Part shown: positions 12,841 to 16,240 of the stretch, one piece after another
Position numbering within the stretch: the first letter of the stretch is position 1
Layout: each line of letters starts with the position of its first letter
NCBI GenBank assembly: GCA_016218495.1
Contig: JACRDU010000057.1
Coordinates: 1 to 46,205 of the forward strand
DNA length: 46,205 nt
Reading direction: 5' to 3'
DNA from: Elusimicrobiota bacterium
GTDB taxonomy: Bacteria; Elusimicrobiota; Elusimicrobia; UBA1565
The notes under the pieces: generated by a model
The model's database searches: none
What the model was told of the DNA's origin: nothing
What the model saw: only the letters and a program-made list of their open reading frames with translations
Translations under genes and position numbers: made by a program

Positions 12841-13533
12841 TCAAGTTCCCGGCGAAGCCAGCAAAGCGCTCAAGTCGTCCGCTTGCGCCGCCTTGAGTCC
12901 GGCCAGGACCGCCTTTCGCCAGCCGGCCGGTAGTCTCTCGAACTTGGACCGCGCCTTGCCTTCGTCACCGCGCGCAACGACTTCGCGTAGGACCTCGACC
13001 GCCTGAAGCCGGTCTTTGGCCGCCTTCTCTTCGTAGGCGCGGCGCCCGCTGATGATGAGCTTCTGGAAGGCAAAGTTGATTGGATGCGGGAGCACGAGGT
13101 CGAGACTGCCGCTTCTGACCTTGATCGTGTCTTCCGACAGCAGGCTGATGAAGCGCAGCGGCTGGGCTTTGACTCCCAACTGCCTCACGAGATACGGCTT
13201 GTCGGTGCCGCGCCCACGCTCGGCCACGAGGAAGTCGATGATGAGCTGGGGATGGCTGAGGCTGATGGAGCCGTCGCCGTGGAACTCCGTGATGAAGCCC
13301 ATATCCTCCAGGAGTTCGGCGACATCGACTTCCCCCTTGAGCCTCGGCGGCGTCGGGATCAGGAAGTCCATGTCGCGCGTGCGGACCGCAGACAGGGCGG
13401 CCCCGGCGAAATAGCCCTTGTAGAAATGAACGCACCAACTCCCGACCAGGACCATGCCCTGGAGGACGCCCGCCTTGTCCAGGCGGCGCAGGACTTCGAT
13501 GACGATTTCAGCGGGCGCGTCTTTTCCTTTCAT
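12841..13533 (-). CDS. nucleotidyltransferase-fold protein, toxin-antitoxin or abortive-infection style
   Basis: A 230-residue protein. GSWCVHFYKGYFAG followed by RTRDMDFLIP gives the GS...DxD pattern of the nucleotidyltransferase superfamily, and LSHPQLIIDFLVAERG supplies the third acidic strand. The layout resembles AbiEii/MNT-like proteins found in two-gene modules. The C-terminal half (residues about 135-230) is helical and charged. The start at 13533 lies inside the end of the upstream partner gene (26-base overlap), implying coupled translation. Target and activity are inferred by family only. Confidence 0.72.
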   Translation of the reverse strand: MKGKDAPAEIVIEVLRRLDKAGVLQGMVLVGSWCVHFYKGYFAGAALSAVRTRDMDFLIPTPPRLKGEVDVAELLEDMGFITEFHGDGSISLSHPQLIIDFLVAERGRGTDKPYLVRQLGVKAQPLRFISLLSEDTIKVRSGSLDLVLPHPINFAFQKLIISGRRAYEEKAAKDRLQAVEVLREVVARGDEGKARSKFERLPAGWRKAVLAGLKAAQADDLSALLASPGT

Positions 13534-13831
13534 GGAGCGCCCGTTTCAGGAACACGATCTGCTTCTTGAGCTCCGCGACGAGACTACGGTACTTCGCCTT
13601 TTGGCTCGCCGCCTGCTTGAAGTCCGCGACTTCTCTGGCGGAGAGCTTGCCTTTATAATCGAACCGGATTTTATCCGCCTTGCGGTAGGCCAAATAGTAG
13701 AACAGCCCGCCCTTGATCTTCTTCGGGACGAGACTCCCTTTCGGCAATGCCGCGATCGCCTGCCGGTATCTCTTCAGCAGGCGCTCGGAGTTCTCGAGCT
13801 CCTCGGAAAGCACGCCTTTCATTGGGTTCAT
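13508..13831 (-). CDS. small basic partner of nucleotidyltransferase (possible antitoxin)
   Basis: A 107-residue protein from the ATG at 13831. It is strongly basic and helical, with ALPKGSLVPKKIKGGLFYYLAYRKADKIRFDYKG in the middle, a pattern of small proteins that precede nucleotidyltransferases in other genomes (DUF6788-like, from memory). The C-terminus is a Lys/Arg-rich coiled segment. A longer reading from 13909 would run through the repeated binding sites and is rejected. It is the first gene of the pair, the usual antitoxin position, and the repeats overlap its promoter. Confidence 0.65.
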   Translation of the reverse strand: MNPMKGVLSEELENSERLLKRYRQAIAALPKGSLVPKKIKGGLFYYLAYRKADKIRFDYKGKLSAREVADFKQAASQKAKYRSLVAELKKQIVFLKRALHERKRRAR

Positions 13832-13840
13832 GGCCGCCAC

Positions 13841-13942
13841 GGTTACCAAACAATATTCACTATTAGCATATGCTGTTAGGTAACCGGCCGCAAGCCCCAT
13901 CATTACCAAACAGGAACGGTTTCAGCGACTATTGTTAGGTAA
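13841..13942. promoter_or_regulatory. four alternating TTACCWAACA sites at 30-bp spacing
   Basis: The 10-base element TTACCAAACA occurs at 13843 and 13903, and its one-mismatch reverse complement TGTTAGGTAA at 13874 and 13933. Start-to-start spacings are 31, 29 and 30 bases, about three helical turns. The outer bases of the first pair extend the arms to 12. A TATTGT -10 candidate (13855-13850, minus) lies within the first pair, so the array is a likely autoregulatory operator for the nucleotidyltransferase operon. Confidence 0.65.
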
Positions 13943-13970
13943 CCGGAGGGCGGGTCGCCGCCAAATGAGG

Positions 13971-13997: not shown

Positions 13998-14015
13998 CAT
14001 CATCGAACATAGGTA

Positions 14016-14086
14016 CTGCCGAACTAGGATTCGAACCTAGACAAAGCGCTCCAGAGGCGCTTGTGCTACCGTTACACCATTCGGCA
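14016..14086 (-). tRNA. tRNA-Gln (anticodon CTG)
   Basis: A full cloverleaf can be drawn on the minus strand: acceptor TGCCGAA/TTCGGCA, D arm around GTGTAACGGTAGCAC, anticodon stem GCGC/GCGC with loop CTCTGGA (CTG, glutamine), and T arm CTAGG-TTCGAAT-CCTAG. The discriminator is G, as expected for Gln. The CCA end is not encoded. Its 3' end faces the accessory island, the usual side for integration. Confidence 0.95.
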
Positions 14087-14094
14087 ATAGGCAT

Positions 14095-14123: not shown

Positions 14124-14256
14124 GGGTGCTGGGTGGCAGCCTCACGGCACAGGCGGCGCTCTGCCCGCCCCTGGCCCCCGGGACGCCCCTGCGCGACACC
14201 GGGGGGTGGGGGTATGTGGACCCAAAAGGCACGGTCTGGGCGTCCTATTAGCCTTC

Positions 14257-14300
14257 CGTAACAACCTCGTAACAACCTTGTAATGCCCTGTTAACGCCCG
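14257..14300 (+). promoter_or_regulatory. Pho-box-like array of 11-bp direct repeats
   Basis: Two identical 11-mers CGTAACAACCT are followed in phase by TGTAATGCCCT and GTTAACGCCCG. Read as hexamers this is GTAACA-N5-GTAACA-N5-GTAATG-N5-TTAACG, the 11-base period used by OmpR/PhoB-family winged-helix regulators and close to the TTAACA-type PhoP box. A weak -10 TACGGT (14306-14311) follows 6 bases after the array, as at activator-dependent promoters. Confidence 0.55.
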
Positions 14301-14348
14301 GGGGCTACGGTGAGGGCATGAAGCGCCGAGCACGGTCCCCCGAGGGAA

Positions 14349-14369
14349 CCCCCGCCGAGGGGGGCTTTT
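14349..14369 (+). terminator. intrinsic-terminator-like hairpin
   Basis: CCCCC-GCCGA-GGGGG is followed by GCTTTTGTT. It lies about 40 bases downstream of the TACGGT element and 100 bases before the next gene, so it could end a short RNA or attenuate transcription into the secreted protein gene. The remainder of 14087-14470 holds the tRNA promoter and the repeat array. Confidence 0.5.
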
Positions 14370-14433
14370 GTTGGGACTTAGGGCCTAGCCGGGCCCAGGC
14401 CGTCCGCCCCGGGCTTCCCGCCACAGTCGCGTC

Positions 14434-14439
14434 TATGCT
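14434..14439 (+). promoter_or_regulatory. -10 hexamer TATGCT
   Basis: TATGCT lies 31 bases before the ATG at 14471 and would give a leader containing the ribosome site AGGGAG (14459-14464). Confidence 0.4.
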
Positions 14440-14470
14440 TGGAAAGGCCCTCACGGGCAGGGAGAATCCG

Positions 14471-15088
14471 ATGAAGCGCGTCCTCATGGCCCTGGCCCTC
14501 GCCGTCCTTGCCTCCGGAGCCTCCGCCGCCGACCATTACCGGGTCAAGGACAGGGGGGGCTTCGGCTCCACCGGCCGCCTCGTCGAGCTCTCCAGCCGCT
14601 TCGGCTGGTCCTCCTACGAGACCGACTTCGATTTCGGGCTGGACATGGCCCGCCGCGGCATCACCCGGGACTCCACCCTCAAGCTCACCATCGCGCGCCA
14701 CGACGGCTCCAAGTGGTCCACCAAGTGCAAGGCCAAGAAGGAGCGCCAGATGTGGGCCAACGTGAACATGCTCTTCGGCAAGGGCGTCACCGTCCTCGTC
14801 GAGTGCCGCATCGACCCGTCGGATTTCGCCGACCTGGTGGACCTCGACGAGGGCCTGGTGGGCGAGCCGACCCTGGTGTTCCAGGCCTTCGTGAAGAACG
14901 GCGAGGCCGAGGCCGGGGTGCAGAAGGGGCTCTATTTCCTGTCGGCCGCACAGATCGAGGCCGGCGAGCTGGCGCCGTTCGCCACGCGCGAAGGCGACCC
15001 GTCGGCCCTCGGGGTCATCTTCCACTCCGCGATGGCGCCCTTCGCGAACCATCCGACCTTCGCGATGGCGCCGCGCGCCGCACAGTAG
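14471..15088 (+). CDS. secreted hypothetical protein
   Basis: A 205-residue protein. The signal peptide MKRVLMALALAVLASGASAA is followed by DHYRVKDRGGFG and a beta-rich domain without a motif I recognise. AGGGAG lies 6 bases before the ATG, which with the signal peptide fixes this start against an in-frame ATG at 14318. The Pho-box-like array upstream suggests phosphate or another two-component control. Confidence 0.65.
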   Translation: MKRVLMALALAVLASGASAADHYRVKDRGGFGSTGRLVELSSRFGWSSYETDFDFGLDMARRGITRDSTLKLTIARHDGSKWSTKCKAKKERQMWANVNMLFGKGVTVLVECRIDPSDFADLVDLDEGLVGEPTLVFQAFVKNGEAEAGVQKGLYFLSAAQIEAGELAPFATREGDPSALGVIFHSAMAPFANHPTFAMAPRAAQ

Positions 15089-15091
15089 GGT

Positions 15092-16240
15092 TCAGACCGG
15101 GTCGGGGCGGGGGCCTTCGCGCTTGAGCGGCGCGTCGCCCAGCAGGCGGCCTTCCTGGCCGCCGGAGATCAAAGGCAGGGAGATGACGAAGCGGGCCCCG
15201 CCCTCGGGCCGGGATTCCGCCTTGATGCTCCCGCCGTGCGACTCGACGACGCGCTGGGCGACGCTCAGCCCCAGGCCGCTCTTGCGCCCCCTGCCGTGGC
15301 TGACGAAGGGCAGGAACAGGGTCTCGCGGATCTCCGGGGGGACGCCCGGGCCGTCGTCGGCCAGCGAGAGCTCGATGCGGCCGTCGCGGGCGTGGGCCTC
15401 GACGCTGACGGTCCCCGCCTTGCCGGCCAGGGCCTGGATGGAGTTCATCAGCAGGTTCTCGAGCACGCGCAGGATGCGCCTGTCGTCCATGACGGCGATG
15501 AAGGGCTCCGCCGAGAGCTTGAGCTTTACGCCGGCGTGGCGCAGGCGCGACGAGGAGGCCTCCCGGAACTCGTCGAGCAGGGCGTCGACGCGCGTCGACT
15601 GCATCTCCAAGACGACCTCGCCGGCCCCGAAGTCCAGCAGGTCCTGCAGCATCCCGGCCATCCGGTCGATCTGGCGGCGGATGCTGCGCATGGCGTTGGC
15701 GGTAGGGGCGTCGGCGTGGGTCTCGGCGACCAGGCTGGCGGCCAGGTCGATGGTCCCCAGCGGGTTGCGGAAGTCGTGGATGATGGAGCGCGCCATCTCG
15801 CCGACCAGCTGCATCTTGCCCTTGCGCAGCAGCTCGTCGGCGTAACGGTCGTTGGCGTCGCGCAGGTAGCGGACCGTGCGGCTCAGGAAGGCCAGCGCCG
15901 TGGAGCCCGGCTCGCCCTCCAGCACGGTGCGGACCACGGCCACCGGCACGCGCAGGGCCGTCACGGCTCCGATGGCCTTGGCTCCCAGGGTCCGAGGCTG
16001 CCCCGAGAGCACCCCCAGCTCGCCGATGAACTTGCCGGCCTCCACCTTGCCCAGCGAGGCCTCTCCCCGCGTCAGCTCCACATCGCCCGAGTCGATGATG
16101 TAGACGGCGTCCGGAGGGGCGTCTTCCACGAAGATGGCCTCGCCCGGCGCGAAGCGGCGCGTTTCGGCCGCTGCGGCCAGGGCGGCGCGGCCGGAAGGCG
16201 AGAAGAGGTCGTAGAAGGAGTTCCCGGCGGGTTCGGCCAC
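15092..16240 (-). CDS. orphan sensor histidine kinase with cyclic-nucleotide-binding-type N-terminus
   Basis: A 382-residue cytoplasmic protein. Residues about 10-115 form a cNMP-binding (Crp-like) beta-roll (APGEAIFVEDAPPDAVYIIDSGDVELTRG, FIGELGVLSGQPRT). The dimerisation domain has the phosphoacceptor His155 in IIHDFRNPLG. The ATPase domain shows N (ENLLMNS, about 261-267), G1 (DDGPGV, 295-300) and G2 (SGLGLSV, 321-327) boxes. There is no transmembrane segment and no adjacent response regulator. The GTG start lies 6 bases after TATGCT. The ligand may be a cyclic nucleotide, but the binding residues cannot be judged here. Confidence 0.88.
   Translation of the reverse strand: MAEPAGNSFYDLFSPSGRAALAAAAETRRFAPGEAIFVEDAPPDAVYIIDSGDVELTRGEASLGKVEAGKFIGELGVLSGQPRTLGAKAIGAVTALRVPVAVVRTVLEGEPGSTALAFLSRTVRYLRDANDRYADELLRKGKMQLVGEMARSIIHDFRNPLGTIDLAASLVAETHADAPTANAMRSIRRQIDRMAGMLQDLLDFGAGEVVLEMQSTRVDALLDEFREASSSRLRHAGVKLKLSAEPFIAVMDDRRILRVLENLLMNSIQALAGKAGTVSVEAHARDGRIELSLADDGPGVPPEIRETLFLPFVSHGRGRKSGLGLSVAQRVVESHGGSIKAESRPEGGARFVISLPLISGGQEGRLLGDAPLKREGPRPDPV

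Follow-up and report, generated by a model that had tools for sequence, protein, structure and literature searches.

MtrA, one of the described systems closest to the locus analyzed here, is phosphorylated in the canonical way and has a dedicated kinase, MtrB. At E. coli phoA and pstS, six bases lie between the last 11-mer and the -10, as in the array described below, and the CtrA box, TTAA-n7-TTAA, has the same period as this array. GlnR boxes are given as gTnAC-n6-GaAAC or GTnAC-n6-GTnAC in the accessible part of PMC10704036, and the MtrA box of Streptomyces as GtnAcC-n5-GTnAcn in that of PMC13189361, while the available portion of PMC4415409 describes a Pho box as two or more 11-nt direct repeats. 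A limited survey of the literature, which included parts of PMC10783764, yielded no publication describing a regulon like the one below in Elusimicrobia.

Layout and conservation of the array

The window, the whole stretch of DNA that was analyzed (46,205 nucleotides), is the entire contig 18 of genome G000. Direct reading of the window placed four 11-mers in one phase at 14256-14299 on the + strand. Half-site 1 (14256-14266, CCGTAACAACC) and half-site 2 (14267-14277, TCGTAACAACC) carry an exact GTAACA, half-site 3 (14278-14288, TTGTAATGCCC) carries GTAATG, and the promoter-proximal half-site 4 (14289-14299, TGTTAACGCCC) carries TTAACG. On the same strand, a 6-nt spacer, GGGGGC (14300-14305), connects the array to a predicted -10 hexamer, TACGGT (14306-14311), and six further bases, GAGGGC, separate this hexamer from an ATG at 14318. 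The initial annotation had claimed this arrangement of four in-phase 11-mers, six bases, a weak -10, another six bases and the ATG, and both the repeats and the spacing proved to be as it described.

The array is distinct within the window. Tandem Repeats Finder detected its first 2.5 copies, and a pattern of three in-register half-sites with up to three mismatches gave four overlapping matches in the 46,205 bases, all at the array, compared to 0.07 expected by shuffling. We also scored the window with a 56-column matrix that was trained on nine relatives, with the window sequence excluded; the array scored 57.7, its overlapping registers 23.2 and 12.6, and no non-overlapping place in the window more than 6.0. 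A plasmid origin gave no match.

Orthologues of the secreted protein encoded downstream were found in 30 of 57 genomes and fall into families f1, f2 and f3. In families f1 and f3, the four in-register half-sites, the 6-nt spacer and the -10 aligned gap-free in all 10 loci. Registers for the promoter alignment were picked by eye, and 5 of the 30 orthologue loci (L017, L018, L021, L023, and L024) were omitted from it. Across 11 promoters aligned without gaps over 56 columns, the spacer had the same length in 11/11, the A at position 2 of the -10 hexamer was invariant in 11/11, and AA was invariant at three of the four half-sites, with one A kept in 10/11 at the remaining one; at half-site 4, AAC was invariant in 11/11. 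The position of the -10 was thus kept among relatives despite its weak sequence (TATGGT, TAGCCT, TACCCT, and others). Promoters of family f2 (20 loci) appeared weaker by eye, with one or two half-sites at the equivalent place in most and no convincing half-site pair in five (the same five that were omitted from the alignment).

Judged from these sequence comparisons, the array at 14256-14299 is a real, conserved operator of the activator type, and there is little doubt that it belongs to the OmpR type. Its 11-bp direct repeats appear to stand in place of a -35 element, in keeping with the activator-dependent promoter initially proposed. We infer activation rather than repression, as well as the start site and the identity of the regulator.

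Related promoters and the candidate regulator

We scanned 29 genomes with R1, a sequence-only model built from the 11 promoters. Thirty hits were obtained at E<1e-3, of which 11 were the training sites. Among the 19 others, 12 precede an orphan histidine kinase, 3 a secreted MDRFMEVL protein (MDRFMEVLVKGDP), 2 a VQ(L/V)FI secreted protein and 1 a small secreted protein, and the target of 1 was not clear. Target gene families were assigned by eye from open reading frame (ORF) lists, for 35 R1 hit places and for 30 hits of the second model described below. The kinase has a HELRAP H-box and no transmembrane segment apparent by eye, and a search with it gave a match at E<1e-40 in 56/57 genomes, some of these matches being merely paralogues.

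A second matrix, trained on ten secreted-gene promoters only and therefore without kinase promoters, was applied to the 283 bp upstream of the kinase. A site at ≤1/100 shuffles was found in 41/50 genomes; the other 9/50 kinase promoters exceeded 1/100, in several cases owing to a register shift of the matrix. The start codon lies exactly 6 nt past the -10 in 28 of 41 kinase promoters, compared to ∼1.3 expected from 2/64; this count used 41 of the 50 rows, and G007, G010, G021, G026, G027, G037, G047, G054, and G056 were omitted for a shifted register or a poor site. Such an offset places the predicted +1 at the start codon, and the messages are therefore probably leaderless.

Model R2, built from 24 kinase promoters, was used to scan 57 genomes with filters stricter than those of R1, and the targets of 30 hits, mostly from the top of the list, were read. 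A coiled-coil protein was among the targets in several genomes. G002 has a second sensor kinase, also met in G000, and G000 has a secreted protein resembling a protease; small MNIM(M) proteins were read in f2, as were further exported proteins among the targets. No obvious nitrogen genes were seen among the downstream ORFs read at R1 and R2 hits. Elusimicrobiales-like genomes gave kinase-domain matches in 26/26, the best per genome being 39 to 48% identical with 45 to 48% for those ranked highest, and none of the matches in these 26 genomes reads as the same protein; R2 found no array in 56 loci from such genomes (loci rather than whole genomes). Taken together, these data suggest that this Elusimicrobia order has a small regulon under the control of a shared operator, which consists of two to four half-sites. 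The resulting promoter rule, [GTAAC-n6]x2-4, 6 nt, TANNNT, 6 nt, start codon, predicts both targets and start sites.

We propose, with a probability of roughly 0.7, that the array is an OmpR/PhoB-family activator operator that replaces the -35 element and that the protein L041 is its most likely regulator. Winged-helix activator monomers of this family would bind head-to-tail, one per 11-bp turn, on the GTAAC-n6 half-sites, a tandem arrangement modelled on PhoB and GlnR. The bound monomers would take over the role of the -35 element and bring RNA polymerase to the weak -10 six bases downstream. Transcription would then start at or beside the A of the ATG at 14318 and cross an in-frame leader into the secreted beta-barrel gene, with translation either leaderless from ATG 14318 or from an internal, Shine-Dalgarno-led ATG at 14471. 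The same operator would drive the orphan cytoplasmic histidine kinase, the second sensor kinase, the coiled-coil protein and several exported proteins. The regulator would be the single-copy, Asp-less, OmpR-type L041, whose DNA-binding domain resembles those of the actinobacterial GlnR, MtrA, and RegX3.

L041 (G000:C155:33946-34740) was found as a single copy in 52/57 genomes, 58 to 89% identical to the G000 protein, with one partial match in G056. Four genomes with completeness of 62 to 85% (G004, G040, G053, and G054) have a kinase match and no L041 match. Named relatives, up to 88% identical, come mostly from Elusimicrobia metagenome-assembled genomes, which makes an Elusimicrobia bacterium the most likely host. 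Elusimicrobiales-like genomes contain relatives at 48 to 52% identity; their presence there, where R2 found no array in 56 loci, counts against the assignment, as do the four genomes with a kinase match alone. Across four genomes, the DNA-binding domain of L041 averages 84% identity, compared to 51, 49, and 58% in three other groups, and this near-invariant domain matches an operator that hardly changes. The recognition region, SPRTVDVHVRRLREKL, is invariant in 16 aligned sequences, and the corresponding region of chain 8hih, FGGTRTVDVHVRRLRAKL, is nearly the same; we take this chain to be GlnR, as the record names a transcriptional regulatory protein only. L041 matches Trans_reg_C at 2.4e-25, and its Response_reg match falls below the cut-off. 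In the alignment, both the phospho-Asp and the N-terminal acidic pair are missing from its receiver, which reads CDLLLVGQ where the phospho-Asp motif is usual. Among proteins of solved structure, RegX3, MtrA, and GlnR come nearest to L041, MtrA being second-best, and the match to GlnR spans residues 132 to 263, the receiver aligning in its last part alone. The recognition helix of E. coli PhoB is also nearly the same as that of L041, and the helix alone therefore cannot separate GTAAC from GTCA boxes. From its conservation and resemblance, L041 is probably the regulator of the array, one protein nominated for one operator among some 29 candidates.

No array was found in the neighborhood of L041, save one weak hit just downstream of L041 in L232 (E 0.0044), and apart from this hit autoregulation was not seen. 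In G000:C155 (L219), L041 is preceded by a PAS-like and a membrane protein and followed by a receiver-containing frame and a membrane-bound sensor-like ORF, which by eye form a signaling cluster.

The strongest alternative is that a different OmpR-type regulator binds the operator. It could be a canonical, phosphorylatable one whose partner is the regulated kinase, in an autoregulated two-component loop. The OmpR-type DNA-binding domain has 29 matches in G000, all but one of them over the family cut-off, the kinase gene carries the operator in most genomes, which is typical of autoregulation, and the L043 group, like that of L041, gave reciprocal best matches throughout a four-genome comparison that took in G013, G027, and G021 (10 OmpR-type regulators). 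However, the DNA-binding domains of the L043 group average just 51% identity and their recognition helices differ, whereas the operator hardly changes. Moreover, no more than 4 OmpR-type regulators were found in G013 and 5 in G027, two genomes that keep the kinase operator. We regard a different OmpR-type regulator as less likely than L041.

The secreted-protein leader, the hairpin and the phosphate question

The gene that the array promoter appears to serve is the one initially proposed, which encodes a secreted protein of ∼205 amino acids (14471-15088, + strand) with a signal peptide identified by reading. The protein has no Pfam or NCBIfam family match. Its AlphaFold model is a small beta-barrel (mean pLDDT 84.9, pTM 0.79), for which Foldseek gave no match at E≤0.001, and VIA-align matched it to designed and avidin-like small beta-barrels with Z ≤6.7, a range expected without relatedness. 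The predicted +1, placed from the spacing, is the A of the ATG at 14318 (+), which would make a leaderless start. From this ATG, an open 51-codon extension (14318-14470, +) continues in frame into the secreted protein to give an ORF of 256 amino acids, and it could be either leaderless-translated or a 5′ leader. The same frame is open and in frame in five f1 loci (L004 to L008).

The extension has pN/pS values of 1.24 (L004/L005) and 0.74 (L006/L008), compared to 0.46 and 0.23 downstream, which indicates that its peptide is weakly constrained and favors ATG 14471 as the start of the functional protein. This ATG is preceded by a Shine-Dalgarno-like AGGGAG (14459-14464, +), and a similar GGGAG is present in L005 and L006. 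The upstream ORF in f3 has a pN/pS of 1.08 (L012/L013). WD(L/F) and GRENPMKR recur in the leader frame of some f1 loci, with GREN overlapping the Shine-Dalgarno site; a conserved leader peptide was considered, and pN/pS near 1 speaks against a selected peptide. In L012 and L013 (f3), the leader forms an ORF of its own, 44 codons long. The stop of this ORF and the secreted-protein start codon overlap (ATGA), which suggests translational coupling.

The array promoter could instead make a regulatory RNA of 50-60 nt, or a leader attenuated at a hairpin at 14349, as the initial annotation had it. A GC-rich hairpin followed by TTTTG, with a 5-bp stem and a broken T-run, does lie at a fitting place (14349-14364, +), but we judge it to be a chance feature. 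Two terminator-type patterns were found in the region, compared to 0.9 ± 0.9 in shuffles, and the fold z-score of the hairpin, -0.32, is no better than that of shuffled sequence. Four relatives of the same family (L005 to L008) have no TTTT in the matching 75 nt, and in L004 to L008 an open frame runs across the hairpin, in phase with the secreted protein. Among Rfam families, tRNA alone passes its gathering score. An attenuator or small RNA is thus very unlikely, and the early terminator and the short or attenuated transcript of the initial annotation are unsupported.

The surroundings of the array include a divergent tRNA-Gln gene (14015-14087), and a likewise divergent tRNA-Gln-like sequence was seen by eye near the array in L007 and L009 too. 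On the other side, the secreted-protein gene adjoins a convergent gene (15092-16240), whose kinase product combines cNMP-binding, HisKA, and HATPase domains. Between an ORF at 13508-13909 (-) and the tRNA-Gln, TTACCAAACA ... TGTTAGGTAACCGG occurs twice within positions 13840-13946, at a distance of ∼60 bp, in inverted-repeat pairs whose 13-nt arms are 92% and whose 22-nt arms are 86% complementary; this is possibly a small mobile or folded element.

The initial annotation had also read the array as Pho-box-like, and a true Pho box, bound by PhoB in a promoter for phosphate limitation, would have the identical 11-bp direct-repeat geometry. GTAACA differs little from GTCA, and on G000:C58 a PstS-like gene is found close to one for an OmpR-type regulator. 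PstS (TIGR02136, E≤0.001) was found in 30/57 genomes and not in the other 27/57. Upstream of the 30 pst loci, GTCA-n7-GTCA was present in 26, and within 200 bp in 19, compared to 0/24 control loci upstream of secreted-protein orthologues (24 of the 30 orthologue loci, namely those with enough upstream sequence, L033 also being omitted). GTAAC-type boxes were seen in 0/25 pst upstreams, and R1 found no array in any of the 30 pst loci. The proposed scan for further arrays near pst or pho genes found none among the hits whose downstream genes were read, an outcome that the initial annotation itself had named as refuting its phosphate reading. Two genomes without a PstS match (G010 and G022, 97 and 99% complete) nevertheless carry the array at the kinase. 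With a GTCA box and no array at pst loci, these genomes possess two 11-bp box systems side by side, of which the window shows the non-pst one. The phosphate reading is rejected by this comparison with pst loci and is highly improbable. In the pst loci of relatives, for example L253, L254, L262, and L265, a very regular CGTCACGCGTTCGTCACAT-like box was observed ∼100 bp before pstS, and it is apparently this box that represents the true Pho box in the order. The phosphate label, plausible but wrong, thereby gives way to a regulon that can be tested, in a lineage with almost no cultured members.

Finally, a chance repeat or satellite, for which the near-identity of repeats 1 and 2, like that of a young tandem duplication, could be cited, has a negligible probability and is refuted by the position and spacing kept across an order and by a matrix score far above the window background.

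Comparison with known systems

With two or more 11-nt direct repeats, the array would qualify as a Pho box under the description in the available part of PMC4415409. Its core is GTAAC rather than GTCA, however, and no phosphate genes were seen among the array targets read. HP1043 (HsrA) of Helicobacter and ChxR of Chlamydia are described as phosphorylation-independent OmpR-family regulators, as L041 may be. The MtrA box, as given in the accessible part of PMC13189361, is a GTnAC direct repeat with nearly the spacing of the array, although L041, unlike MtrA, has no phospho-Asp.

The GlnR box, with GTnAC/GaAAC half-sites, an n6 spacer, and 11-nt direct repeats in one or two pairs, is like the array (PMC10704036, in its accessible part), and both the array and its relatives show this pattern. 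GlnR, like L041, is an OmpR-family protein without a working phosphorylation pocket, and the recognition helices are near-identical. The systems differ in that the receiver of L041 could be aligned to GlnR in its last part only, that the targets read here are not obviously nitrogen genes, and that the phylum is another one. From sequence comparison, we view this regulon as new but of a known kind, and L041 as a concrete candidate for its regulator. A more tentative extension is that a phosphorylation-independent, GlnR-like regulator, single-copy and present in nearly all members of the order, acts as a housekeeping activator of the envelope and secretome through a GlnR/MtrA-type box and leaderless messages, and sets the level of the orphan kinase. 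If this is true, distant phyla would have retained, or arrived again at, the same box and recognition helix, with the regulon shifted from nitrogen to the cell envelope.
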